From NCBI GenBank assembly GCA_002683825.1, contig NYUD01000061.1:1-64000 (forward strand): a stretch of 64,000 nt of DNA, read 5' to 3'. Position 1 is the first letter of the stretch. Every line of letters starts with the position of its first letter. This document shows, piece after piece, positions 48,173 to 64,000 of the stretch. The notes beneath the pieces were generated by a model, which made no database searches, was not told the DNA's origin, and was given only the letters and a program-made list of their open reading frames with translations. Made by a program: the position numbers and the translations under genes. Origin of the DNA: Planctomycetota bacterium (GTDB lineage Bacteria > Planctomycetota > UBA1135 > GCA-002686595).

Positions 48173-49584
48173 CGTAAACTCTTCCCAAGCACGGTGTCAG
48201 ACACTTTCCTGCCTCCCAGGGCGGAAAATAGCCTTTCGACACCCGCCCCGGCAAACAAACACAGCACGGGAACGATCGGCAGGAGGAAGCGAAACTTCAC
48301 CGAGACCAGGAACAAGCCCGCCAGAAAGGACAGGCCGAACAGGGAAAGCAGCCGCCAACCCGGGCGACTCCAGGCTCGATGAAGGCCGTAAAGGGCCATG
48401 GCCAGCATGAGAAACCAAAGCCCGCGTCCAAACGTAGCGAGGGCGTTCATCCACGCGGGCGGAGTCGCGCCCCAGCGGCCGCGAAACGAGAGCGATTGCT
48501 CGAGAGAGGACTCCGAGAAGAAGAAGAGCTGGAGCGTTTGCTCGAGCTGATCCCACAGCACCGAGGGAAGGTGTTCGCGAACGTAGCGCAGTGTGCGTTC
48601 GCGAGCCAAACGCTCGCGCTCGGCGGGTTGATCCGCGGCGGCGAAGTACGCAAGACTCTTCTCGACGAGCGGCTCGAAACGCGCAGCGCCCTCGCCCTTG
48701 AAGTCCTCGGTGTTCAGCGTGAGTCCCAGCTCCAGATTCCACCAGCGGTTGGCGGACAGGCGTGCACCGTGGCCGGCTCGGGCGTTGGCCAGAATCTGCG
48801 GAACCAACACCAGTGCCAGAGGCGCCAGGAAAACGAGGGCGGGGATTGCCGAGCGAGCGCCCCTCCTTGCCCGAGAGGCCAGGGAGGCGTCGGGCGCGAC
48901 GAACTTTTCGTCCCTCCAGGCCGAGAGAAAGAGGGCCGGCGGTATCAGCGGCAAGAAGACCTGCAAACTGCCCTTGGAGAAAAGCGCAAGACCAAGAGCC
49001 AAGCCAGCGAGGGCGAGGGCGTAGAGGCGCTTGGCTTGCAGATAGAAGATCAGACCAAGAAGCCCGAGGGAGGCGAGGCAAAGGTGCAGGAGCTCGGGCC
49101 AGAGGGAATGAACGTGAAAACCTACCTGGGGTAGGAGCCCGAGAAACAATACGGACGCCAGGCCTCCGCGTGACGACAGCCCCAGGGTCCGGGCCGTGGC
49201 ATAGACGGCGGTCAATGCCAGCAGAAGGAGGGGAATCTGAAAGAGGCCGACCCGCAGCACGAGTTTCGCCGCCGACGCCACCATCTCCTGTGGTTGGGCA
49301 GGGATCCCCCGGCTGTCCGCGAATTGGGCGAAGACCCGCGTTGCCAGCTGGGGGCGGTGGTCAAATCCGAACGTGCCGGGCAAGAAACCCGTTCGCCCCT
49401 CGAAGGCTTCCTGCGTCGCAAAGGCCCAGTAGTGCGTCTCGTCCCCCCAAACCCTCGGCTCGGGCTGCAGTCCCCGGAAGACCAGGTGGAGCAGGCCCAG
49501 GCACGCGAGCAGTACGCCCAGTCCGAAGAGCTCGCGTCTGGTCGGGCGGCAGCACGAAACCGAGGCCGAGGGCGGGACGGACAT
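48169..49584 (-). CDS. GT-C fold membrane glycosyltransferase (GT39-like)
   Basis: 471 residues, about 10 membrane helices. The first outer loop carries RVWGDETHYWAFA, with the Asp-Glu pair expected of dolichyl-phosphate-mannose-type mannosyltransferases. SLWPELLHLCLASLG and ALGLALFSKGSLQVFLPLIP match the GT39/PMT_2 pattern. It probably adds a sugar from a polyprenyl carrier to a lipid or protein outside the membrane. First gene of a minus-strand run; its end overlaps the sigma factor start by 4 nt. Divergent from the sulfatase gene, 38 nt apart, so the promoters must overlap. Confidence 0.8.
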   Translation of the reverse strand: MSVPPSASVSCCRPTRRELFGLGVLLACLGLLHLVFRGLQPEPRVWGDETHYWAFATQEAFEGRTGFLPGTFGFDHRPQLATRVFAQFADSRGIPAQPQEMVASAAKLVLRVGLFQIPLLLLALTAVYATARTLGLSSRGGLASVLFLGLLPQVGFHVHSLWPELLHLCLASLGLLGLIFYLQAKRLYALALAGLALGLALFSKGSLQVFLPLIPPALFLSAWRDEKFVAPDASLASRARRGARSAIPALVFLAPLALVLVPQILANARAGHGARLSANRWWNLELGLTLNTEDFKGEGAARFEPLVEKSLAYFAAADQPAERERLARERTLRYVREHLPSVLWDQLEQTLQLFFFSESSLEQSLSFRGRWGATPPAWMNALATFGRGLWFLMLAMALYGLHRAWSRPGWRLLSLFGLSFLAGLFLVSVKFRFLLPIVPVLCLFAGAGVERLFSALGGRKVSDTVLGKSLR

Positions 49585-49622
49585 CGGCGGTACGATACGG
49601 TATCGTCGAGGACCCGGTGAGA

Positions 49623-50933
49623 ATGCTACGCCACGTTTCCCCGATCCTCCTCCTTGTCACGTTCGGCGCGTGTGCTCCGGAGCAGCGCGCGGATGCGGCA
49701 CGACCCAACATCGTGCTCCTGATTTCCGACGACCAGGACAACGCGCACCTGGGGTTTCAGGGGCATCCGCTCGCCCATTCGCCGAACATCGATCGTCTGG
49801 CGGAGGCCGGCATGATCTTTTCGACGATGCACACCCCCCCGCGTTGTCGCCCCTCCTTGGCCGTGCTTCTTTCCGGTCGCTGGCCCCACCAGTCGGGCAT
49901 CTATGCGAACCGGCACGGGGGCGCTCTCGACCCACAGGGGTCCCTTCCCAACCGGCTACGCAACGCGGGCTACGCAACCTTCGCCGGCGGCAAGTACTGG
50001 GAGCAAGCCGCAGGCGCGATGGGTTTCGACGCACCCGCACAACCCGACCGGATGTTCGGTCGCGCGGGCCAGGACGAGCTTTTCGCCTTCATCGACGAAC
50101 ACGCCGGCAAGCAGCCGCTGTTCATCTGGTGGGCTCCCGCGCTACCGCATACGCCGCACGATCCGCCCATGCGATATCAGGACCTGATCGATCCTGAGAA
50201 GATCGACGTTCCCTCCTGGTTGCCGCAGGCGACACTGGATGTGTTCCGCCAGTACGAACACATGAGCCTGGCCATGGGTGCATGGCTGGACGACGAAATC
50301 GGCAAGCTCGTCCAAAAATTCAGGAGTGCCGGTCTCTATGAAAACACGCTCTTGCTCTTCCTGATCGACAACGGCTGGAGCAACGGTCTGGTTGCCAAAG
50401 GCTCCCCGTTCGAAAAGGGGATCAGCACACCGCTCGTCGCCACATGGCCCGCGCGCATCGCCCCGGGGAAACGAAACTCCGCCATGATCGAATCGATCGA
50501 TCTGTTTCCCACGATCCTGGAAGCAGCCGGTCTCGAGGTTCCGGAGAGCTATCCGGGAACGAGCCTGCTGGGTGCCCTGGAGGGCGAGCCCTTTCAGGGC
50601 CGTCGGACGATCTGCGGCGCCATCTACGGCCGCGGCGCGACGCCCGGCGAGCAACCCGAGCTCGACGTCTATGCCCTGTATGCGCGCACGACCCGCTGGA
50701 AGTACATCTACTACCTGGGGCCGGTCGACGAAGGGGTCTGGTCGATCATGAAGATCACGCCGCTGGCGGACATGATCCGCCAGCGAGGGGACGAGGATCT
50801 CTTCGATCTGGCAGCGGACCCGCTGGAGCTCGACGATCTGGCCGACGATGCTTCAAGACGCGCGCTCATGGATGGCCTTCGGGCGCAAGCGCTCACATGG
50901 TGGCGGCAATCGGGTGGAGTTCCCCTGGAGTGA
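49623..50933 (+). CDS. sulfatase, putative lipoprotein
   Basis: 436 residues from ATG 49623, which has GAGGA 9 nt upstream; a GTG two codons earlier is also possible. The much longer open frame upstream is antisense to the GT-C gene and rejected. Signal peptide ISPILLLVTFGAC-like, with Cys17. Metal ligands Asp36-Asp37 in LLISDDQDN. The active-site motif CRPSL (75-79) has the formylglycine Cys and Pro-Ser, but Leu replaces the last Arg of CxPxR. FLIDNGWSNG gives the other metal ligands. It is the only one of the three sulfatase-fold proteins here with the catalytic Cys, so most likely a true sulfatase on sulfated glycans. Ends 5 nt before the convergent CRTAC1-type gene. Confidence 0.86.
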   Translation: MLRHVSPILLLVTFGACAPEQRADAARPNIVLLISDDQDNAHLGFQGHPLAHSPNIDRLAEAGMIFSTMHTPPRCRPSLAVLLSGRWPHQSGIYANRHGGALDPQGSLPNRLRNAGYATFAGGKYWEQAAGAMGFDAPAQPDRMFGRAGQDELFAFIDEHAGKQPLFIWWAPALPHTPHDPPMRYQDLIDPEKIDVPSWLPQATLDVFRQYEHMSLAMGAWLDDEIGKLVQKFRSAGLYENTLLLFLIDNGWSNGLVAKGSPFEKGISTPLVATWPARIAPGKRNSAMIESIDLFPTILEAAGLEVPESYPGTSLLGALEGEPFQGRRTICGAIYGRGATPGEQPELDVYALYARTTRWKYIYYLGPVDEGVWSIMKITPLADMIRQRGDEDLFDLAADPLELDDLADDASRRALMDGLRAQALTWWRQSGGVPLE

Positions 50934-50938
50934 TGCTC

Positions 50939-53900
50939 CTAGCGAATCCCCTCCAGGAGAGCCCGCGCCTCGCTGTGGTCGGGCTTCAGAGCCAGGGCCC
51001 GGCGCAAAGGCGCCTTCGCCTCCTCCGGGCGGCCCAGTTTCACGAGCGTCGAACCCAGGAGATAGTTGGCGCGCCAGTGATCGCTGCGCACCTTCACCGC
51101 ACGCTGAAGTAGCGCAAGCGCTTCGGTCAGTTTCTCCTGGCGGAGCAAGAGTGTGGAGAGCCGCAACAACGTCGTCGCGTGAGCCGGCCGGAGGCGCAAG
51201 ATTTCACGATAGACCTCGGCCGCATCCTCCTCGCGTCCGCTGCGTTCCAGGTTTTCCCCGCGGCTTTGCCGCCAACGCATGGCCATCGGCTCGATCTCGT
51301 ACATGAGGGCGTAGAGTTCCGCAGCCGCAGCATGGCGCTCCTCCTTCTCCAGTTGCCTGCTGAGATCCTCCGCAAGCTGCAAGTACTTCCGCCGTCCACC
51401 CGCGTCTTCAACGAGTTCACCGGGAACCTCGAGGGTTCTAAAGACCGCAGCCGCGGCCTCCGTCAAGCCGTGGTCGCGCAGTTCCCGCACCAGCCGAATC
51501 GTGACCCCGAGCATTTCGAAGGAGGTGAAGAGCCAGCGCCCTTCCAGGGGGGAGGCTGCATATCGCAGCTCCAGCGGGGAGGCATCTTCCAGCTCGAGGT
51601 CGGAAAACAGCTGGTCGACATCGAGCGGCCCCTTGTAGATCACGGAGATCCCGCCAGAGGCGGTGATGAGGAAGCTCGCCGGCAACGGCAGCGGCCTCCT
51701 GCGGATCAGCATCGAGCGCTGGATCAGGTCCAGAGCATCGAGCAATTCATTCGTTGTAAAACCGGCTTCGAAGGGCCAATCGATACGTTCAAGGAGCGCC
51801 CGCGCAGCATCGTGATCCTCCTCGAGGTCAACGCTGAGGGCGAGCACGGAGAGACCGCGCTCTTCGAATTCGTCGGCGCGGCGCGTGAACTCCGTCATCT
51901 CGACCAGGCACGGTGCGCAACTGCTGGCCCACAGGTTGAGAAGGAGCGAGCGCCCCGGTTCCCGCCGGGTCCGGACGCGCTGCAGCTCTTCCGACAGCGT
52001 CCGATAGTCCAGCGGCGGCATGGACGGGCGCGCGGCCAAAACGATGCGCGCCTTTCCCGTTGCAACGGGAGCCTTCAGATTCTCTCCCTTGAGCGACAGC
52101 GTTCTCTCGGGCGGCTGCCAGAGTTGTGGTGCCTCACCGCCTTGGACGAGCAGGTACTGGCGGTTCTTCTCCAGGCCGGAAAATTCCTCCTTCTCTCCGC
52201 CCGACCAGTGCACCACGACGCGTTCGATTTGCCGAGCCCGGCCGAGGCCGAAGTGGAGCCACTTCGTGGATTGGGAGAGGTAGCCGTCGCCGGCGTGCAA
52301 CGTGCGCACAAGGCGGTCGCTGGACTCCCCGCTCAGGTAGACCTCGACGCGCGCCCCGATCCCGTCGCGATTGGTGGACGTACCGCGCAGGCGCAGAGAC
52401 AGGAATCCGTTGTCGCCAGCCAGGCGGTTGTGCAGGAAGCGCACCTGTGGCGCTGAACGGTTCTTGAACCAGATATCGACCGCGCCATCGAAATCCCAGT
52501 CGACCAGGGCGAGTCCGCGCGCATCGTCCTTGAAGTTCGCTCCGCTGATCCCGGACACGTCCGAGAAGCGCCGGCCGTCCAGATTGAGAAAGACGCAGTT
52601 GGCCTCTCTGCCGCTCCAGCTCATCCCCTCGCGCATCAGGCGGTAAGTGGCCTTCCAGCCGCTGCGATAGTCTTTCTGATCACCCTCGGCTTCCGCCGTG
52701 GTCGGCGATTGCGCCACGACCTGGCGCCAGAAGAAGCTTCACAAGTCCGCTGGATCGTCGCTGGTTACCAGGCCGTTGGCCACCAAGATGTCCTGGCGCG
52801 TGTCGTTGTTCAAATCACACAACTTGGACGACCAGGCCCAACGCCCCATCGTGATTCCCGCTTCGAGACTGACGTCGCGAAACGTGCCGTCCGCGGAGTT
52901 GGAGAAAAGAGAGTTCCCTCGGGCGTGACGCCGGAACTGCGAGAGCGTCGATTCGTCCGCAGCAGACTTGAAGTTTCTCTGGTAGGCGATGCGGTTGCCC
53001 GCACTCGAGAACATGTTGCTGACGTGCAGGTCCATCCAGCCGTCGTTGTCGACGTCCCCCCAGGAAACTCCCATACCGGCAGAAATGTCCTCAACACCCG
53101 CCTTTCCGGCAATGTCGCGAAAACGCCCGTTCTCGAATTCGTAGAGGTTGTTGCGGCCGAAATCGTTGGCGACGTACAGATCTAGGTCGCCGTCGTTATC
53201 GAAGTCCTCCCAGGAAACTGCGAAGCTGAAACGCCGGTTGTTTTCATCCAGGCCACTCTCGAGGGTGACATCCGTGAACACCCAGTGGGAGCCCCGACTG
53301 TCGTTACGCAGGAGCACGTTGGGCTCGCCGTTGTTGGCATCGTGATACGGCAACGGAGCGACGCCGCTACCATCGGGAATCTTGTAAGCGCAACCGTAGA
53401 TGTCCAGGTCGCCATCGCCGTCGTAGTCGGCCGCTGCAAGGGAGTGCAGCTGTGCATAGGGCTGCAGCCAGCGCCTCTCGAACTTGGCGCGTCCGTTGTT
53501 TTCAAACAGGATCAAGATCGCCGAGGTGGCCAGCAGGAGATCCTGATCCCCGTCGTTGTCGATGTCGATGAGCAGAGCCCCGCGGCTGGGGTCGAGAAAA
53601 TCGACACCCGCACTCGCTGAAGCATCCCGCACGGTGCCATCCAGGTTCTGGATGAACAGCCGGTTGGGAAGGCCTCCCGCCTGGCAGACATAGACGTCCT
53701 CCAGGCCGTCTCCATCGACGTCGCCGATGGCGATCCCCTGGTGTCCGAGGAGCGACCCAAAAACCATTCCCTGGATGCCCCCCAGCCAATTCTCGACGTG
53801 GACCCCGAGGTGCTTGGAGTAGACCTCGGAACCCGCAAAGACCGATTCCGTGCAATCCTCGAAGAAAAGCCCTCTGTGCGAACGGTTCTCGGTGTACCGA

Positions 53901-54655
53901 GAGATCGAGATCTCCTTCAGCTTGGGTCGCTCGCGATCGGAGGCGTCAAAGAGAAGGCTCCAGGTGGAGCTTTGCTGGATCGCCGAGGTGTCGGATGGGC
54001 CGTCCCCCTGAAAGAGCGCCTGCGCGCGCAGGTCCACGCCCTCGGATGAGACCTCGAACACCTTGAACTTCACGTGCAGCTCCGCCCCACTGGAATAGGG
54101 CGCGCGCAGGTCCCGCAATGCCCCGGCCAGGCCTGGAACGCCGCGGTAGATTCGTTCCGCCTGTTCGGCGCTCGTTTCCGGAGTCGAAGCACCGGAATGG
54201 ACGACGATCCCCTCGTCCTCGTAGACAAGAGTCGCATCGACCTCGCGCAAACGGGAGCATTCGAAATCCTTCGAGCACAGTTTCTCGAGCTCGGTGAAAG
54301 CGGAGCTGGTTGTCAGGGAATGTTCGCCCACCTGCTCGCGGCCCCAGATCTCGCCGAGCTCGTGTAGACGAGCGGAGATCAGCCCGTTTTGAACCTCGCT
54401 GTTCCAGCCGTCGACCGCGGGATCGACACTCGCGTACTTCTCCGCGAGTACGAGATCGCGTAGCGCCTCGCGATCGCCCCGGGGCATGGGCACCGCGTCC
54501 AGGGACCGCCCCCGATCCGACGCGCTCCGTGAAGCTGCATCGCCCCCACTCACGGCCGGAGCAGAAACATCTTCGCCGGTTTTGGAACAACCGCAGAAAC
54601 ACCCGGCAAGCACCAGGCCAAGGCAGGGGACCAGACTCGGTTGGGCTCTCAGCAT
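50939..54655 (-). CDS. CRTAC1-type FG-GAP/ASPIC-UnbV/thioredoxin/TPR lipoprotein, candidate selenoprotein (in-frame TGA = Sec639)
   Basis: 1238 residues if the single in-frame TGA at 52739-52741 is decoded. Conventional calling would split it into 52739-54655 and 50939-52717. Start ATG 54655 gives a lipoprotein signal (LVLAGC). FG-GAP/VCBS repeats with Asp-rich calcium-type loops (AIGDVDGDGLEDVYVC, AAADYDGDGDLDIYGCAYK, SWEDFDNDGDLDLYVANDF) run to DDPADL, then TGA, then SFFWRQVVAQSP, with no frame change. After it come a further repeat (ALVDWDFDGAVDIWF), an ASPIC/UnbV domain (about 764-841, IGARVEVYLSG), a thioredoxin-like domain with CAPC (913-916) and TPRs (1086-end). Homologous to 60531-63803 across the TGA. 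Probably an outer redox protein. A twin nonsense mutation is unlikely. Confidence 0.8.
52694..52741 (-). promoter_or_regulatory. candidate selenocysteine codon with bacterial SECIS-like hairpin (minus strand gene)
   Basis: TGA codon at 52739-52741, followed on the minus strand by a stem-loop. Positions 13-16 after TGA pair with 42-45, 18-21 with 36-39, and 24-27 with 32-35, with small bulges and a CAAU loop at positions 28-31. In total 12 pairs, all G-C except one A-U. The apical loop lies 27 nt after the TGA, within the roughly 16-37 nt spacing described for bacterial SECIS elements. The loop lacks a leading G unless the closing G-C pair opens. Folding was done by eye. Confidence 0.6.
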
Positions 54656-55056
54656 CGTTTCGAGGGGGCCGGCCCGCTTGGACCGCGCTCCTATGTTGCC
54701 CCATGCTCGGCCGCCGTCGGCTACCCGGGCTATGATTTTCTGTCCATTTCGCAAGCTGGCTCGAACTATCGATGGACATGCACCCCAATCGTCCCGGTCG
54801 ACCGGACTGGACCGCGGTCGACTGAGATCGAAAACGACGGGCGTTCGATCCGGACATCGTTCCTTCGATCAACGCACTTCACGCCCGTCGGACCGCAGGC
54901 TCGAGCGGCGGCGCGTATGGACGGCGAACCCGTCGCCGTCGAGGCCCAGGCCTCCCGTTCACGACCTTTCGTCCGGAACTCGCAAACGAGCCCTCCTTCG
55001 ACGAGCACTCCCTACGCCGATACATCTGAATGACCGGGGGAGAATCGCAGGGAAGG
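54656..55056. other. 401-nt intergenic region, nothing recognised
   Basis: Between the start of the CRTAC1-type gene and the end of hutU, both on the minus strand. Short open frames here have no signal peptide, conserved motif or coupling to neighbours. A gtcgac-containing 8-nt direct repeat (cggtcgac) occurs twice near 54800-54825. The region presumably holds the promoter of the CRTAC1-type gene, but no clear promoter boxes are seen. Confidence 0.5.
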
Positions 55057-56736
55057 CTATTTCAGAAACGGCAGGTCGATGCCCTCTTCGCGGGCGCAGT
55101 CCAGGGCCTTTTCGTAGCCGGCATCGGCATGCCGCATCACCCCCGTGCCCGGATCATTCGTCAACACGCGCTGACAGGCTTCCCGCGCCGCGGCAGTGCC
55201 GTCGACCACGGTGACCTGTCCGGCGTGGAGACTGTAGCCCATCCCGACGCCGCCACCGTGGTGAAAGGAGACCCAGCTGGCTCCGCTGGCCACGTTCAAC
55301 ATGCAGTTGAGCAACGGCCAATCGGCCACCGCATCGGTTCCGTCGCGCATGTTTTCGGTTTCCCGATTGGGCGAAGCGACCGAACCGCAATCGAGATGGT
55401 CGCGACCGATAGCGATCGGTGCGGAAAGGCGGCCGTCAGCAACCGCGTCGTTGAACGCCACGCCCGCCTTCGCACGCTCGCCGTAGCCCAGCCAGCAGAT
55501 ACGCGCCGGGAGCCCCTGGAAGGCGATGCGTTCCCCGGCCAGCCGGATCCAGCGCACGAGGGCCTCGTCCCCGGGAAAGAGTTCGCGGATGATCTCGTCG
55601 GTCACGGCGATGTCCTTCGGGTCGCCCGACAGCGCAACCCAGCGGAAGGGGCCTTTCCCTTCGCAAAAAAGCGGTCGCACGTACTTGGGCACAAAGCCCT
55701 CGAAGCCAAAGGCGCCCTCGAACCCAGCTTGCCTGGCGTGGCCACGCAGGTTGTTGCCGTAGTCGAAGGTATCCGAACCGCGCTCCTGCAGCTCGAGCAT
55801 CGCACGGACATGATCGGTCATCGTGCGGAAGGACTCCTCTTCGTAGCGTTTCGGATCGTCGCGGCGCAAGCGCAGTGCTTGCTCGAAACTCATGCCGTTC
55901 GGAACGTAGCCGTTGAGCGGATCGTGCGCACTCGTTTGATCGGTCGTCACGTCGGGCGTAACCCCCCGTTCCAGCAAGCGCTCGAGCAGGTCGCACGCGT
56001 TGGCGACCACGCCGATCGACTTGGCGACTCCGGCTTCCTTCCACTCGAGGGCGCGGTCGATGGCCTCGTCGAGATCCTCGATGAGCTCGTCACAATATCG
56101 CGTCTGCAGGCGCTTTTCGATTCGAGAGCGATCGACATCGGCTCCCAGGTAGGTGCCTTCGTTCATGACCGCGGCCAGCGGTTGGGCACCGCCCATGCCT
56201 CCCATTCCGCCCGAAACGACGAGGCGGCCCTCGAGAGTTCCCCCGAAGTTGCGTTTGGCCGAAGCCGCAAAGGTCTCGTAGGTGCCCTGGAGGATTCCCT
56301 GACTGCCGATGTAGATCCACGAGCCCGCGGTCATCTGCCCGAACATGATCTTCCCTTCCGCCTCGAGGTGGCGGAAGTGCTCCCAGTTCGCCCAGCGTCC
56401 GACGAGGTTGGAGTTCGCGATCAGAACGCGGGGCGCGGCGGAATGCGTGCGAAAGACGCCCACCGGCTTGCCCGATTGAACGAGCAGCGTTTCATCGGAC
56501 TCGAGGCGTTGCAGCGTCCGGGCGATCGAGCGCAACGAATCCCAATCGCGAGCGGCCTTGCCGCTGCCCCCGTAGACGATGAGCCGGTCCGGATCTTCGG
56601 CCACCTCGGGATCGAGGTTGTTCAACAGGAGGCGCAGAGCTGCCTCCGCCGCCCAGGTCTTGCAGGAAAGCTCCGCTCCTCGGGGTGCTTTGAGGGGCGG
56701 TTGGAGAAGGGAATCGGTCAGGGCGGGGGATGACAT
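55057..56736 (-). CDS. hutU: urocanate hydratase
   Basis: 559 residues from ATG 56736, matching the usual length of about 557; the 75-codon upstream extension is low-complexity and rejected. Converts urocanate to 4-imidazolone-5-propionate with tightly bound [23 protein letters not shown], the glycine-rich NAD loop [14 protein letters not shown], the active-site region [15 protein letters not shown], and the Cys in [20 protein letters not shown] are conserved. Second enzyme of histidine degradation, 275 nt downstream of hutH on the same strand. The gap contains a 7-bp hairpin (56768-56790, cctcccc/ggggagg). hutI and hutG are not in the window. Confidence 0.95.
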
Positions 56737-57011
56737 CCGGGTGACTTTCGACGGACTCCTCCCTCCACCTCCCCCACCCACCTGGGGAGGGACGGATGGT
56801 GGGGGCGCGGGTTGCGAAAAAACCGGCGGATTTCGCGGACCGCGGCGGGGAGTATAGCAAGCGGGTGAGACTTCTCCTCGGACCGACGGTGCAGCTCGGG
56901 ATTCACCTCGAACGCCGTGAGGAAGAATCCTTCGGGTTCGCGGCTCGCCTCGGTCGGCCAAAGCGAGCCCAAGACTTGGCTCCCTTGCCGGCTTCCTTCC
57001 AAATCCGCAAG

Positions 57012-58547
57012 TTACGACTTCAACTCACCGACGGCCTTCTCCACGCCCGCCAGAAGCAACCCCGAGCCCAGGAGTTCGAAAGCCGTATCCAGATCGTCCT
57101 TCAAGTAGCGATCGCGCTCCAGCGAAGGAACGTGGGCCCGAATCAGATCGTAAACCGCCTGAGCGCCTTGTCCCGCTTTGAGTTCGGAATGAAAGTCGCG
57201 CGCCTGCGTAGCGCAGAGAGCCTCGATCGCGAGGACCCATTCGACATTGGTACAAACCGCCCGCGCCTTGCGTGCGGCGGTCACCCCCATGGAAACGTGG
57301 TCCTCCTGGTTGGCACTCGTGGGAATCGTGTCGATCGAGGCGGGGTGGGCCAGGGACTTGTTCTCGCTGGCCAACGAGGCGGCGGCCACCTGCGCGATCA
57401 TCATTCCCGAATTGAGCCCCGGTCTGGCCGTCAGAAAGCCGGGTAGGGCCGAAAGGTCCGGGTTGACCAGCTGTTCAGTGCGACGCTCCGAAATGTTCGA
57501 GAGGGTGCAAAGGGCCAGGTTCAGGTAGTCCATGGCCATCGAGATCGGTTGGCCGTGAAACTGGCCGGCACTGATGACTTCCTCGGTCTCGGAAAAGATG
57601 ATGGGGTTGTCCGTGACGCTGTTCAGCTCGGGGCGAAGTACGCCGTGTACATGGTCCAGAGCCTCCTTGAACGCGCCGTGAACCTGGGGTACGCAGCGCA
57701 GGGAATACGGATCCTGCACACGACCGCAATCGGCGTGGCTCTTCATGATCTGGGAATCGGCCAGGCACCGACGAACATTCTCCGCGGTTCGTACGTGGCC
57801 GGGTTGGCCCTTCAGGTCGGCCAAACGGGCATCGAAGGGCTTCACGCTCCCGAAGAGAGCCTCGATGGTCAGGGCTGCGATCGCATCGGCACTTCTCGAC
57901 AGGTCCAGCGCCCGCAAGACGACTCCGGCTCCGATCGCCCCCATGACCTCGGTGCCGTTGATCAGTGCCAAGCCTTCCTTGGCCATAAGATGCAGGGGCT
58001 CTTCCCCCGCCTCTCTCAGCGCCTTGTCCGCTGCCATGCGCTCGCCGCGCAGAAAGACCTCACCGTACCCCATGTAGGCTGCCGCCATGTGCGCCAACGG
58101 TGCGAGATCACCGCTGGCTCCGACGGAACCTTTCTGCGGAACGACCGGAACGAACTCGGCTCGATAGAACCCGCAAAGTCGCTCGATCAATCCGCTTCGC
58201 ACACCGGAATATCCACGCACCAAGGCGTTCAAGCGCAGGACCTGAACGGCGCGAACCTCTTCGATCGGCATGGGCTCACCCACGCCGCAGCAATGGGACA
58301 GAATCAGGTTCTCCTGCAACTCACCGAGATTGCGGCGATCGATGCCGACGGTCTTGAGCTTGCCGAACCCGGTCGTCAGGCCATACACCGCGGCCCTGGA
58401 AGCGACGGACTTGTCTACCACGGCGCGGCACCTCTCCACGCTTTGCATCGCCTCGGCCGCCACTTCGATCTCGGGTAAGATCCCCCGAAAGATGGGGGCC
58501 AGGTCCGCAAGGGTGAGAGAGTTACCGTCCAGTCGCAGTTTGGCCAC
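57012..58547 (-). CDS. hutH: histidine ammonia-lyase
   Basis: 511 residues, the standard length. Deaminates L-histidine to urocanate. The MIO electrophile forms from Ala144-Ser145-Gly146 in [16 protein letters not shown]. The active-site Tyr lies in [13 protein letters not shown], and further landmarks are [27 protein letters not shown] and the C-terminal [13 protein letters not shown]. Cytosolic homotetramer in characterised members. ATG start with the family-typical short N-terminus. Upstream of hutU on the same strand, so the first two steps of histidine use are encoded together. The upstream carboxypeptidase-regulatory-domain gene ends 42 nt before it. Confidence 0.95.
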
Positions 58548-58589
58548 GACGCGAATTCTATCCAGGGCAGGAAAGCGAGGGGAACCCTA

Positions 58590-60335
58590 TTAGGTCCCGG
58601 GAAACTCGCGCCCCGCTCGCCGCCAGGACTCCTCGTCCTGCCCCTCGATGCATTCCTCGGGCAGTTTGACGACACGCGAGTCCGAGCCCGAGATCTCGAG
58701 TTCTTCGTTCTTGTAAACCGGTTCGCCGTGCCAGGTGATACGGAGGCGCCAGACCCCGGAGGGAATGTCGTGGATTTCCAGGGATTCCGAGGGCTTCAGG
58801 ACGGCGAGATCCCTCGGCGCCCCGTTCAAGACCAGGTCGACCGGCAAGCCCTGGTAGCGACCGGGAAACGCCAATTTCAAGGCCGCGTCACCCGTATCGA
58901 CCTCGCTCAATTGCAAGTCACAAACCTCGGTGCCCGCACGAATGAACCTGCCGGCCCACGTCTTGCCGTCCTTGCCGCGCGCCTCGATATAGCGTACGGC
59001 ACTTTCGTCGGGCCAGGCGGAAAGGAAAAACCGCCCGTTCGCGCCGGTCTGGGTCTCCTGCACCGCCGGAGGAATGTCGGGAATGATCGCCGTCTCGAGG
59101 TAGTAGCTGGCTTCCCTGAAGAAGGAAAGCGTGGCCCGGGGTCGATCCGCAGCTTCGAGCCGGACATGCGCTCCCGAGACAGGTTCGCCGTCGAGAGTAA
59201 CCTGACCGACAATCTTGGGCGCGGGCTCGAGATCGATCTGAACCCTCTGTTCGCGCGCGCTCAGGTTGACCACCTTGAGCTTGGCTTCGGCGCCCTGGCG
59301 GAAGGTGTAGAGCTTGACGACCTGGTTAGGCGGCAAACCGTCGATGCGCACCGGTCTGCCGGGCCAGACCTCGATGGGATTCTTGGTATGAAAGGGGAAG
59401 CGCGAATTGCGATAGGCCGAGTCGGCGGTCGAGCGATAGCCGTGCTGGCCGGGAAGCACGATGAGCTGTGCCGGCCCGGGGCCACCTACGTTGCCTCGCA
59501 GCGCGACCTCGAGTGAGACCTCCTTGTCCAGGGTAAAGACCAGTCGCTCGCGATTCGCGTTTGTCACACCGGCTTGCACCCAGACGAGCTCTTGGTAGGA
59601 GGCGTAGCCCTCCTTCTCGATCTCGGCCAACACCTGCCCCCCTGCCACGCTGGGCACGTACAGCTCGCCCTCGGTGCCCGTGTGATAGACCTTGCCGTCG
59701 AAGGTCACGCGAACGCCTTCGATGCCATCGCCCTTGCGGTCCTGGACCCGCCCGTTGACGCTGGCCAGGCGGCCAAAACCGATGTTGAGAATGACGCCCT
59801 GGCCACGGCGCAGGCGAACTTCGCGACGGGCTCCAAGGATCCCCTCCCCGCTGATCTCGACCACTCCCAGGCCGGGATAGAGATCATTGGCCCCGAAGGA
59901 CCCGCCGCTGTCGCAGCGCAGAACGCGGCCCGCGTTCGTCCCTTTCAAAAAAATAACATCGGCCCGTACCGCCTCGCCTCGGGCTCCGGTCAGCCGCCCC
60001 GAGAATCGCGCGGTCCGCCCGGTCCCGATGGGAACCATGCCCTTTTCCACCGGCAGATAGGCGGGCTGGACCAGGTCAAGCTCGATCTTGAGGGGCCACA
60101 GAACGGTCGAGTCGGTCGTTTCGCTTGGAACCGGGTGATCCCTGAGCTTCAAGGCGACTTGTTCGAGATCGCCGGCCTCGCGGGTGGGCGCACCGGTGGC
60201 CGAGGGACCCACCGCGACCCGCCCGCGCCTCTCGACCGACCCCCCGGCCTGGAGCAGGCAATAGAGCCCTCCCACGCCCGCGAGACCCAGCAGGGCGAAA
60301 AGCAGAAAGGGAAAGATTTTCCGGGAGGAGCTCAT
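58590..60335 (-). CDS. carboxypeptidase regulatory-like domain protein, membrane anchored
   Basis: 581 residues from ATG 60335, which places a membrane helix (about 6-28, IFPFLLFALLGLAGVGGLYC) at the N-terminus; the 74-codon upstream extension is not supported. The rest is a chain of beta-sandwich modules of the CarboxypepD_reg type: ARFSGRLTGARGEAVRADVI, VNGRVQDRKGDGIEGVRVTF and IVGQVTLDGEPVSGAHVRLE. These end with NGRFFLSA and LRITWHGEPVYKNEELEI. No catalytic domain. Probably an extracytoplasmic structural or binding protein, similar in style to the protein at 20401. Divergent from the CRTAC1-type gene at 60531 (195 nt between). Confidence 0.75.
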   Translation of the reverse strand: MSSSRKIFPFLLFALLGLAGVGGLYCLLQAGGSVERRGRVAVGPSATGAPTREAGDLEQVALKLRDHPVPSETTDSTVLWPLKIELDLVQPAYLPVEKGMVPIGTGRTARFSGRLTGARGEAVRADVIFLKGTNAGRVLRCDSGGSFGANDLYPGLGVVEISGEGILGARREVRLRRGQGVILNIGFGRLASVNGRVQDRKGDGIEGVRVTFDGKVYHTGTEGELYVPSVAGGQVLAEIEKEGYASYQELVWVQAGVTNANRERLVFTLDKEVSLEVALRGNVGGPGPAQLIVLPGQHGYRSTADSAYRNSRFPFHTKNPIEVWPGRPVRIDGLPPNQVVKLYTFRQGAEAKLKVVNLSAREQRVQIDLEPAPKIVGQVTLDGEPVSGAHVRLEAADRPRATLSFFREASYYLETAIIPDIPPAVQETQTGANGRFFLSAWPDESAVRYIEARGKDGKTWAGRFIRAGTEVCDLQLSEVDTGDAALKLAFPGRYQGLPVDLVLNGAPRDLAVLKPSESLEIHDIPSGVWRLRITWHGEPVYKNEELEISGSDSRVVKLPEECIEGQDEESWRRAGREFPGT

Positions 60336-60530
60336 TGGAGGGGGAACCGGTAGCTGCGGAAGATAGCCCCGATCGGGGGACGGGTCACTCCTCGGATTGG
60401 CCTTGGAACGATCCGGCCCCGCTCCAGCGGTCCCCGCATGGGCGGTGGGAAGGGAATTCACCTCACGCTCCGTCGATGGATCTGCCGAGGTGAGAACCCG
60501 TCCCCTTCGCCCCGTCACCTCCACCTTTAT

Positions 60531-63500
60531 ATGAGCACTTCGGACCGCCCTGCTCACCTCCTAGGCTTTTCCCTGCTCCTCACCGCCCTGGTCGTCAACC
60601 AGTGGTCGTTGGCATGGCAATTCTCGGGCGATGAGCACATCGAAACAACCCTGAAACTCGCACGCATCTGGAGTTTCCAGGTCGTTCTCGGCCTCGCCGG
60701 AATGGCCATCACGTTGGGGTGGCGACCCTTTCGCATCGGAACGGTATCCGGCCGCGGACTGTCGCTCTTGCTCGTCCCCCTCTGGGCCTTCGGCGGCTTC
60801 GGCACGCTCAAGGCATGGGGCTTTCTGCAGACGGATGCGGAGAAGCTCCAAACGTCTCAGATCAGTCACATGACGGCTTCGGAGAGCGTGCATCTGAACC
60901 TCTCTGGAAAACGGCTGAAGCAACTCAGCACGGCGCTACGCAACCTTGAAATTCGAAGCGTTCTGACGAGCTCGCTCCTGGCCGATCAAATCCGCGTGCG
61001 AGACATCGCATCGGGACCGAGCCTCTACCGAGAACTTCCCACGGTCGACACCACCATCCTGAAGTGGAAAGTCGCCGCCGAAGAACGCTCGGTTGCGCGC
61101 GAGGATTTCACCTTCCTGACCCCATTTCTCGAGACGATTGGCTGGCTTGAAGAGGGCAGCAAGTTCTACTTCATCGGCGGTAACTTCAGCGACGAAAGCA
61201 TGCGCCGCTGGGAGGTCGAGGCCGGCTTCACGGCGTCAGGACGAACCAAGAACGGCGAGCGTATCAAGGCCAAGGGCAGGCTGGTCATCGGCTGGGTGCT
61301 GGCTTCCGACAAGAACCCCGAGGTCGTGGAGGAGTTCACGAACTGGGACGCATGGGCGATCGATCGCCTGGCCTGGTCGACCTTCAAGACCTATCTGGCA
61401 CCCGAGACCTTCTTCACCGAAGAGCTGGCGAGCGCCGTACCGGACAAAGAGGCGCTTGAGGAAGCGCGTCGCAACCGCGCCCAGGAGATGATCGTTCGCT
61501 TCCTCAAGCTGGAGGCAGCGGGAAACACATGGGATCCACCCCACGAGTTCTTCGGCCACATGGCGTCCTGGCGTCACCCTGCAATCAGCGTCGTGGACTG
61601 GGACCGGGATGGTTGGGACGACTTCTATTCCATGGCTCGCTACGGGAGAAACCTGTTCTTTCACAATCAGGGCGACGGCACCTTCCAGGAGATCGGACGC
61701 TCGATCGGACTGGACGTGGTCGATCACTCCGACATGGCGCTCTTCGCCGACTTCGACAACGACGGTGATGACGACCTCTTCCTGGGACGGACGCTCGCCG
61801 AGAGCATGTTCTTCACCAACGAAGGAGATTCGTACATCGATCGCTCTCAGGGCCTCATAGAAGGGGGCCTACCCTACTTTGCGACCACCGCAGCGGCGAC
61901 CGACTTCAACCTGGACGGAATGCTCGACTTCTACGTCGGCACCTATGCGGCCCAGCTGATCGAGAAGGACATCCGCAACAAACATGCGCAGGGGATGAAA
62001 CCGAACGGAAGAGTCCTGGAGGAGTATCTCCCAGAACGCTATTCCCGCGAGCTCCTCTCGCACTTCCAGCAGATGCAGAAGCACAAGGTCCGCGATCGGA
62101 TCGGTCCGCCCAATATCCTCGTGCAAAACGATGGCAACGGAGGGTTCTCGTGCGTGGAGAACACGCCCCTGGAGATCTATCGCAATACATTCCAGGCCAG
62201 CTTCGCGGACTTCGATGTCGACGGCGATCCTGACGTCTACGTCGCCAATGACTTCGCGCCGAACCACATGTTCCGGAACGACGGAGGCACCTTCGTCGAC
62301 ATCACCGCCGAGACAAATGCAGAGGACGTCGGCTTCGGCATGGGCATCTCCTGGGGTGACTACGACCGCGACGGCGATCAGGATGCCTACGTGTCAAACA
62401 TGTACAGCAAGGCCGGCAACCGCATCCTCAAGAGCATCAAGGGGCTCAATCAGACCTTCCTGAGAATGGCGGCAGGGAACTCGCTCCTCGAGCTGGAGAA
62501 CGGCTCGTTCGAACGCGTTTCCTCGCTGGAAGGGCCCGGCATGCACGTCGAAATGGCGGGCTGGTCCTGGGGAAGTCAGTTCGTCGATGTCGACAACGAT
62601 GGTTGGCTCGATTTGTACGCGCTTTCCGGCCACTACACCGCGCCCAGGGAAATACGGGCCGGGCATGACTTGTGAAGCGAGTTCTGGCGCACGGTCGTGC
62701 GCTCGGACGACAACATCAAGTTCCGCAAGCGCGATGAGGGGGATCTGAGCGACTTCGGAGAATCGAAGCCGACAAACTCCTTCAGCGGCGGCGAGACGGA
62801 CCACCTGTTTCTCAGCGATGTCGGAGAGCAGTTCTACGACCTCGACATGCTTTCCGGATTGGCCCACCCGGGCGACGGGCGTACCGCGTGTCAGCTGGAC
62901 TATGACAGGGACGGTTGGAACGACTTTGTCGTCGCAAGCGCCAACGCCCCTACCGTACAGCTGTATCGCAACCGAATCGGCGAACGCTTCCACCCGGATG
63001 CGAAGGGATCCCGCATGGTCGCCCTCCGTTTCGTCGGCGGCAACCGGACGACAGCCGCATCCACCGAATGGAGCCCACGCGCGGGCTACGGCGCCCTGGT
63101 GAACCTGAATATCGGCGGCAAGCCCCTGGTGCGAGAGGTTCGCTGCGGCGACGGCCGGGCTGCCGTCCACTCACGCACGATGCTGGTGGGCGTGGGCGAC
63201 AACAAACTCATCCGTGAAATCCACGTGCGCTGGCCCTCGGGCAAGGAGCACTCCTGGAAGAACGTTCCAGCGGGCAGGCTCGTGACCGTGTATGAAAATC
63301 CTGATGAATCGCCGAACAAGAAACCCTTCCACACCCAGCCGTACCTGAAGAACGTGTTGAAGGGCGCCAAGCTGGCACAGGCGGAGAAGAAGCACCTCCC
63401 GTTGACCCTCCCCCACGACGACTCGCCGGCGGCGTTGAACCTGGTGACGGCCATGTCGACACACTGCAAGGGTTGCCAGAGGCTACAGCCCCAGGTCGCC

Positions 63501-63803
63501 TTGCTACGTGAAACGTTCGACAGATCCCTCGTCGGCATCTGGGGCGTGGGCACGGACCTGGACGAATCGCCTGAAACACTGGAAGCCTACTCCGGAGCTC
63601 ATCAGCCGGCGTACTTGGTGCTGAGCGACCTGGCAATGGAAGAGCGACGCGCGTTGCGCGAACACGTGCGGGATACCTTCCAGGACGACCTGACACCGGC
63701 AACCGTGATCACGGATGCTTCGGGCGGGATCCTGCGAACCCTCACCGGAATTCCGACGGTGTCGGAGGTCCTGGAACTCCTGGACTCCGTGCAAGGACGC
63801 TGA
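60531..63803 (+). CDS. CRTAC1-type FG-GAP/ASPIC-UnbV/thioredoxin membrane protein, candidate selenoprotein (in-frame TGA = Sec715)
   Basis: 1090 residues if the single in-frame TGA at 62673-62675 is decoded. Conventional calling would give two genes, 60531-62675 and about 62697-63803. Three N-terminal membrane helices (10-26, 46-63, 76-93) precede a coil-rich region. FG-GAP repeats follow (VVDWDRDGWDDFYSMARY, LFADFDNDGDDDLFLGRTL, SFADFDVDGDPDVYVANDF), then GHDL, TGA, SEFWRTVVRSDD in the same frame. After it come another repeat (QLDYDRDGWNDFVVA), an ASPIC/UnbV domain (about 850-920, GYGALVNLNIG) and a thioredoxin-like domain with CKGC (979-982). Same TGA context as in the gene at 50939-54655. 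Start ATG 60531 opens the first membrane helix. Likely an envelope redox protein. Confidence 0.8.
62673..62711 (+). promoter_or_regulatory. candidate selenocysteine codon with bacterial SECIS-like hairpin (plus strand gene)
   Basis: TGA at 62673-62675. A stem gtcgt (62694-62698) pairs perfectly with acgac (62707-62711) around an 8-nt loop gcgctcgg that begins with G. The loop starts 24 nt after the TGA, so both the spacing and the G in the first loop position fit the published description of bacterial SECIS elements. The stem sits at the same distance from the TGA as the stem in the minus-strand gene. Folding was done by eye. Confidence 0.62.
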
Positions 63804-63834
63804 GCGAAGGCGCCGAGGCCTCAGCGCGCGGCGA

Positions 63835-64000
63835 TCATGCTCGCTTGGGTTTCTTCGCCCGCTCCTGGCGTTCGCGAGACTGTGCGATGATCATCTCGAA
63901 CAGGCGCTGCACAAAGGATACGTCCAGACCCCGCTGACGAGCGACACGCGCATACAACTCGCTCAGGAATGCCTCGCGCTCGGGATCTTCCACCGACATC
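63835..64000 (-). CDS. chorismate mutase (AroQ-type), C-terminal part
   Basis: Stop at 63835-63837; the gene enters from the right edge, so only 54 codons are visible. The sequence DPEREAFLSELYARVARQRG followed by LDVSFVQRLFEMIIAQSRER is the last two helices of an AroQ-fold chorismate mutase, where the Arg/Glu of the first segment and the Gln/Ser of the last lie near the active site. A Met three residues before DPER is probably internal, as the first long helix should lie beyond the window. Lys/Arg-rich tail. Would convert chorismate to prephenate for Phe/Tyr synthesis. Convergent with the CRTAC1-type gene, 31 nt apart. Confidence 0.65.
   Translation of the reverse strand, partial: MSVEDPEREAFLSELYARVARQRGLDVSFVQRLFEMIIAQSRERQERAKKPKRA

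Follow-up and report, generated by a model that had tools for sequence, protein, structure and literature searches.

A probable multi-copy selenoprotein family with a predicted CRTAC1-like propeller fold in Planctomycetota and other bacteria

The majority of characterised selenoproteins adopt a thioredoxin-like fold, according to the accessible part of a 2026 review (PMC13188914). The same part of the review gives limits for the bacterial SECIS element (bSECIS): a loop of 3-9 nt with a G in the first two loop positions, a stem of 4-16 bp, a distance of 16-37 nt from the TGA, and an energy of -7.5 or lower. Selenoproteins have been reported in Planctomycetes (PMC4807772, accessible part). As for CRTAC1, the accessible text of PMC12758564 describes some clades in which a gene annotated as an FG-GAP protein of the CRTAC1 family lies next to hydrazine-synthase-like genes.

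Here we describe two paralogous genes, each with an in-frame TGA, in a stretch of 64,000 nucleotides from a planctomycete genome (the window). We propose that this TGA is a selenocysteine (Sec) codon (probability about 0.96), and we are nearly as sure of the joint statement that Sec is decoded and that the product is a CRTAC1-like propeller kind of protein. SelB with Sec-tRNA(Sec) would decode the UGA, guided by a SECIS hairpin within the coding sequence, and the final TGA of the second gene would still terminate translation.

Two paralogous genes and their relatives

Gene 2 (60531-63803, + strand) encodes a putative CRTAC1-like selenoprotein of 1090 residues, including Sec715. Its start codon is uncertain, and the frame is open from 60438 (+). 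Counted from 60531, the only internal TGA is codon 715 (62673-62675, +); the terminator is also TGA (63801-63803). Gene 1 (50939-54754, - strand) is a putative paralogous selenoprotein with 1271 codons in the mechanical frame. A more likely start is the ATG at 54655 (reading down), which is followed by a lipobox-like LAGC that we identified by eye. The initial annotation had claimed that the two paralogues have TGA at the same position, and this is correct: codon 672 of gene 1 (Sec672; 52739-52741, -) is equivalent to codon 715 of gene 2. The 12 nucleotides that it saw shared around the TGA, GACTTGTGAAGC, have exactly two copies in the window (62667-62678 on the + strand and 52736-52747 on the - strand), with 0.01 expected by chance. 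Its exclusion of a recent duplication, on the grounds of divergence, is consistent with the 24% identity of the two genes in a full-length alignment. Between the two genes, on the - strand (55060-58547), are genes for urocanase and an aromatic amino acid lyase, probably for histidine degradation; gene 1 and a sulfatase gene (48762-50930, +) converge.

The window's genome (5.4 Mb in 118 contigs) contains more such genes than the two that were first noticed. The read-through protein has 89 matches in it, and the best eight each have one internal TGA. These eight paralogues all have TGA at the equivalent codon, all share the motif D-[LTI]-U-S-x-[FY]-W-R, and all retain the segment downstream of the TGA. 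Their matches have E values of 4.9e-37 or better, versus 4e-17 for the best match without a TGA. A weak match (C5; E = 6e-5 across 74 residues) also contains a TGA.

We sampled the family by protein similarity, independently of any DNA pattern, by running a profile of 31 members (alignment A2) on 149 genomes of the window's phylum. The family was found in 47 of these genomes (122 matches at E up to 1e-45), and 40 of the 149 carry the Sec form. At least one TGA is present in 103 of the 122 matches, a few of these being terminators. Because at most 12 candidates were scored per genome, copy numbers per genome are lower bounds. We took 60 regions for reading the codon at the Sec column. Since 20 of them were picked for having no TGA or other stops, non-TGA forms are over-represented among the 66 readable loci, of which 50 have TGA, six have TGC (Cys), ten have other sense codons, and none has TAA or TAG. 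(Another 19 domain matches were unreadable at this column and are not part of the 66.)

In a tree of 156 rows (FastTree; 140 U, 6 C, 10 other), the Cys rows form one divergent clade, and the states require five changes. Some close relatives have Ala, Arg, Asn, or Gln instead of Sec (L142, L143, L144, L145, L149, and L151), and their genomes carry Sec forms too (for L144, this is genome G074). Perhaps the relatives with neither Sec nor Cys are inactive paralogues. Family members can also be clustered: five TGA genes lie on 20 kb of genome G115 (L183, G115:C253:26525-46084), which has 10 family matches with TGA in total, and four lie on 17 kb of genome G146 (L184, G146:C204).

Scanning with a DNA pattern gave at least 106 stretches. 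Among these, we judged by inspection that 94 are members and 12 are chance matches. The 94 members are listed under Planctomycetota (43), Acidobacteriota (28), Verrucomicrobiota (15), Myxococcota (3), or no phylum (5). The pattern fixes AGC, TWC, TGG, and CG, so these are no evidence in the pattern-derived set; the covarying pairs described below lie outside them. The motif D-L-[UC]-S-x-F-W-R from the initial annotation, with the TGA read through, recurs as D-x-U-[ST]-x-x-W in many related genomes.

Alternatively, the TGA could be a nonsense mutation or a sequencing error in a decaying gene, and the in-frame stop as such fits this. However, all eight paralogues and 50 of the 66 protein-sampled loci have TGA at this codon, and TAA and TAG never occur there. 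Selection is also purifying on both sides: across 146 pairs, which are not independent, the median dN/dS is 0.19 in the 150 codons leading up to the TGA and 0.24 in the 150 codons beginning 15 codons after it (with saturated-synonymous pairs omitted from the downstream median). Among the least diverged pairs (pS of at most 0.35 upstream), dN/dS is 0.02-0.24 upstream and 0.03-0.16 downstream. We rejected the pseudogene or error reading, as it is contradicted by the conserved TGA and by dN/dS, and we consider its probability to be negligible.

The SECIS-like hairpin and the selenocysteine machinery

The TGA is followed by AGCNNNTWCTGGCG and then by a hairpin with a 6-bp stem and a loop of 4 or 5 nt that begins at the 18th nucleotide past the TGA. 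Counted from the TGA, the hairpin spans nucleotides 12 to 27 or 28 and lies inside the coding sequence. In gene 2, the SECIS-like hairpin is GCGCAC-GGTC-GTGCGC (62687-62702, +), and its loop begins 17 nt past the TGA. In gene 1, it is GCGCCA-GGTCG-TGGCGC (52711-52727, -), and the lowest-energy single-sequence fold differs. The loop of 4-5 nt, stem of 6 bp, spacing of 17 nt, and G at loop position 1 or 2 are all within the bSECIS limits. The 102 loci gave 77 distinct sequences. All six pairs form in 65 of these, with the qualification that 11 of the 77, gene 2 included, pair better in the register with the 4-nt loop. The energy of the 39-nt stretch is -7.5 kcal/mol or lower in 76 of the 77, and loop position 2 is G in all of them.

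As a control, we shuffled codons synonymously, between sequences with the same residue at that position. The observed mean of 5.75 pairs compares with 5.18 after shuffling (the highest of 200 shuffles was 5.34), and the mean energy goes from -13.6 to -11.9. For covariation, we used an ungapped alignment of 79 of 93 candidates; the 14 most divergent were omitted (from L179, L182, L183, L184, L185, L187, L190, L192, and L194). In these 79 selected sequences, 96.8% of pair cells are standard, versus 84.8% after shuffling and at most 70.0% in slid registers; the value of 96.8% leans upward because the 93 candidates include no repeats, no sequences that favor the 4-nt-loop register, and none lacking TGG at codon +4. 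Double changes are seen in four of the six pairs (65 cells versus 18.9 when shuffled; 79 rows). Of the five measures of covariation, one (further pair types) was not above the shuffles (145 of 500 were as high; 79 rows). RNAalifold recovers the same helix unaided.

The clearest covarying pair is between the wobble base of an Arg codon and the first base of the fourth codon downstream of it. Across the 79 rows, this pair is CG in 29, GU in 20, AU in 13, GC in 10, UA in 5, and something else in 2. The residue at the covarying codon is mostly Ala, Ser, Thr, or Pro, and it tracks the synonymous Arg base. In other words, an RNA constraint acts on the protein sequence, as the wobble base of Arg dictates the choice among Ala, Ser, Thr, and Pro. 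This is a clean teaching case of an RNA signal that dictates the residue at a protein position. The nucleotide identity between gene 1 and gene 2 is also partly due to the RNA hairpin, beyond the protein alone. Single-sequence folding gives weak support for the hairpin: gene 2 adopts it (z = -1.72), and the 39-nt stretch of gene 1 prefers another fold (z = -0.20). Rfam gave no match in the whole window at the gathering threshold and, with E up to 5 in 50000-64000, two chance-like matches and no SECIS family.

We compared TGA and TGC forms with a loose scan; because it picks the best hairpin from many positions, short stems mean little in it. The stem is at least 5 bp in 48 of the 50 TGA forms (49 of 50 reach an energy of -7.5), and the best stem is 1-2 bp in all six Cys forms, which lack the hairpin. 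Among the ten loci with other sense codons, L143 has a stem of 8 bp, L145 has one of 12 bp, and the rest have 4 bp or less. Divergent subfamilies (DYUTHFWRQV, DLUPPFWKSV, and DGUTCLWRAV) keep both the TGA and the hairpin.

If the TGA were a true stop, then there would be two proteins, with the second one restarted at, for example, GTG 62697. A mechanical open reading frame does begin at this GTG, and an in-frame ATG is present within 30 codons past the TGA in 39 of 152 loci (which include nine duplicate pairs, for 143 distinct loci). However, none of the 152 loci has such an ATG behind a Shine-Dalgarno-like site (ATG starts were scored). GTG 62697 sits inside the hairpin, and there is no AGGAG-like site in the 21 bases after the TGA. 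Also, protein conservation peaks directly around the TGA, and the frame of six relatives is open throughout, with TGC in its place. We consider a restart to be very unlikely.

Decoding as Sec agrees with the gene content of the window's genome, which includes SelA, SelB, a Sec-type SelD, and tRNA-Sec (73.4 bits; anticodon tca/UCA). The SelD of this genome (L202, G000:C109:30611-31552) is itself a Sec form, with TGA in GAGUAAK, and its gene is about 1.7 kb before the tRNA-Sec gene. SelB was found over the cut-off in 38 of 40 genomes with the TGA form, versus 62 of 102 genomes without the family (Fisher p = 2.6e-5). It was also found in all ten genomes behind the named pattern matches (six Acidobacteriota, three Verrucomicrobiota, and one Myxococcota). 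G146, which has the TGA form and no SelB over the cut-off, does have SelA and tRNA-Sec. The sole machinery exception among the 40 is G061, in which neither SelA nor SelB was found. The best tRNA-Sec match in G061 has 50.6 bits, which is over the Rfam cut-off of 47 and well below the 73-75 bits seen elsewhere; scores of 48 also arise beside the true gene in G066. The family gene in G061 (L161, G061:C36) is intact apart from the TGA, so either contigs are missing or the machinery was lost recently. Four genomes have the Cys form. G097 and G004 lack SelA, SelB, and an over-cut-off tRNA-Sec, but G076 and G066 do have Sec machinery, which counts against the Sec reading.

It could also be that UGA is recoded as some other amino acid, or through general readthrough or a changed genetic code, as the inserted residue cannot be told from sequence. 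Against this, the genome has the full Sec machinery, TGA also ends gene 2, and the six TGC relatives have Cys at this position and no hairpin. We view this reading as highly improbable. The main proposal of the initial annotation, that UGA is recoded as selenocysteine, is strongly supported by the paralogues, the Sec machinery, the covarying hairpin, and the hairpin-less Cys forms.

Predicted fold and possible role

The predicted product has the FG-GAP/UnbV architecture of a CRTAC1-like propeller and a single Sec, which lies in a D-x-U-[ST]-x-x-W segment. Gene 2 is above both Pfam cut-offs (FG-GAP repeats and UnbV_ASPIC). Among 41 full-length members that we chose by hand (alignment A3), Pfam finds FG-GAP_3 in 41, UnbV_ASPIC in 39, AhpC-TSA in 22, and TPR in 9. 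The AlphaFold2 model of gene 2, with Sec modelled as Cys, has a mean pLDDT of 87.9 and a pTM of 0.87. The best Foldseek match, and the nearest solved protein, is mouse CRTAC1 (PDB 9etn; E = 1.8e-22; TM = 0.69 by target length), and ResA (1st9) also matches the model of gene 2. In this model, residue 715 is at the start of a predicted helix (714-725). Near the Sec, D169, U171, S172, W175, R176, V178, S206, G209, and E211 (A2 numbering) are invariant in 31 members.

Gene 2 has a C-terminal thioredoxin/ResA-like domain (about 63430-63800, +) with a CxxC (C979-K-G-C982; 63465-63476, +). This domain was assigned by structure, and its NCBIfam sequence match to ResA is weak (E = 0.18). The domain order of gene 1 is propeller, UnbV, thioredoxin-like (AhpC-TSA, E = 3.3e-10; WASSCAPC, C946-A-P-C949), and then TPR. 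The 25 listed of the 62 NCBIfam families that match the 41 members are thioredoxin-like, TPR-type, or unrelated, and include no propeller family. NF041054 (ResA-like WAxxUGC, Sec-associated) matches 11 of the 41. Gene 1 has the lipobox-like LAGC after a hydrophobic stretch and gene 2 has predicted N-terminal helices; judging from these sequence features by eye, the family proteins are probably exported. Among 287 reading frames that neighbour 102 loci, no cluster is present in more than 7 loci, so the gene neighbourhood gives no functional hint.

Given the fused domain and the position of Sec at a predicted helix start, we lean towards redox catalysis with thioredoxin-like re-reduction. The protein would act in the cell envelope, with the selenol at the helix start as the redox nucleophile. 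The Sec would be re-reduced by the thioredoxin-like domain, which is fused in about half of the examined members, or by a separate one, and a peroxide or a disulfide would be our first guesses for the substrate. ResA/TlpA-like models match 23 of the 41 members, which is what one would expect of a thiol or selenol cycle. They do not match the other 18, and we therefore infer, rather than observe, the redox cycle.

Those 18 members would fit instead with a Sec that is decoded but serves in metal binding or structure, with no thiol-type catalysis. The FG-GAP core has many Asp-rich and presumably calcium-binding motifs, and no Cys besides the Sec position is invariant in the 31 members, which would also suit this role. 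The presence of Cys among the alternative residues counts against it, as do the members with ResA/TlpA matches. We regard a metal-binding or structural Sec as possible, with a probability of about one in three. We know of no bacterial function for the CRTAC1/UnbV superfamily, and the Sec offers a candidate catalytic residue for it.

Relation to known selenoproteins and CRTAC1 proteins

This appears to be an unlisted, large, multi-copy selenoprotein family in a propeller fold. Table 1 of PMC13188914, which has 119 prokaryotic selenoprotein families, includes no FG-GAP/UnbV/CRTAC1 family, and FG-GAP, ASPIC, CRTAC, VCBS, and propeller are all absent from the accessible text. The nine new families of deep-Sep, as given in the accessible part of PMC12013277, do not include CRTAC1-like propellers. 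In the open-licence literature, excluding preprints, we did not find UnbV, FG-GAP, or VCBS repeat linked with selenocysteine, and the open-licence articles on CRTAC1 and selenoprotein are, by title, all vertebrate or medical. The family may have been listed earlier among the supplementary candidates of PMC4807772. We suppose that it was overlooked because gene callers split the gene at the UGA and because Cys forms are rare. As 40 of the 149 genomes have the Sec form, many genes from environmental phyla may be annotated as two halves.

We think it somewhat favored that these are widespread Sec-dependent envelope enzymes built on a CRTAC1-type propeller, often with a fused thioredoxin-like reductant, with 8-10 copies in some Planctomycetota and members in at least four phyla.

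The family resembles bacterial selenoproteins in having an in-frame UGA, a downstream hairpin within the limits in the accessible part of PMC13188914, Sec machinery in the genome, and Cys homologues. It is unlike the known ones in that its Sec is in a propeller fold, not a thioredoxin-like one, and in its observed copy number of up to 8-10 per genome. Like the CRTAC1/ASPIC-UnbV proteins (mouse CRTAC1, 9etn), its members have FG-GAP repeats and a UnbV_ASPIC domain. However, the Sec segment is not covered by the sequence match to 9etn, and the bacterial members often carry an additional thioredoxin-like or TPR domain. Finally, the C-terminal domain of the 23 members that match ResA/TlpA is like that of the TlpA/ResA-like oxidoreductases, including NF041054. 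In contrast to the NF041054 type, the thioredoxin-like domain of both window genes has an ordinary CxxC, and the Sec is in the propeller part.
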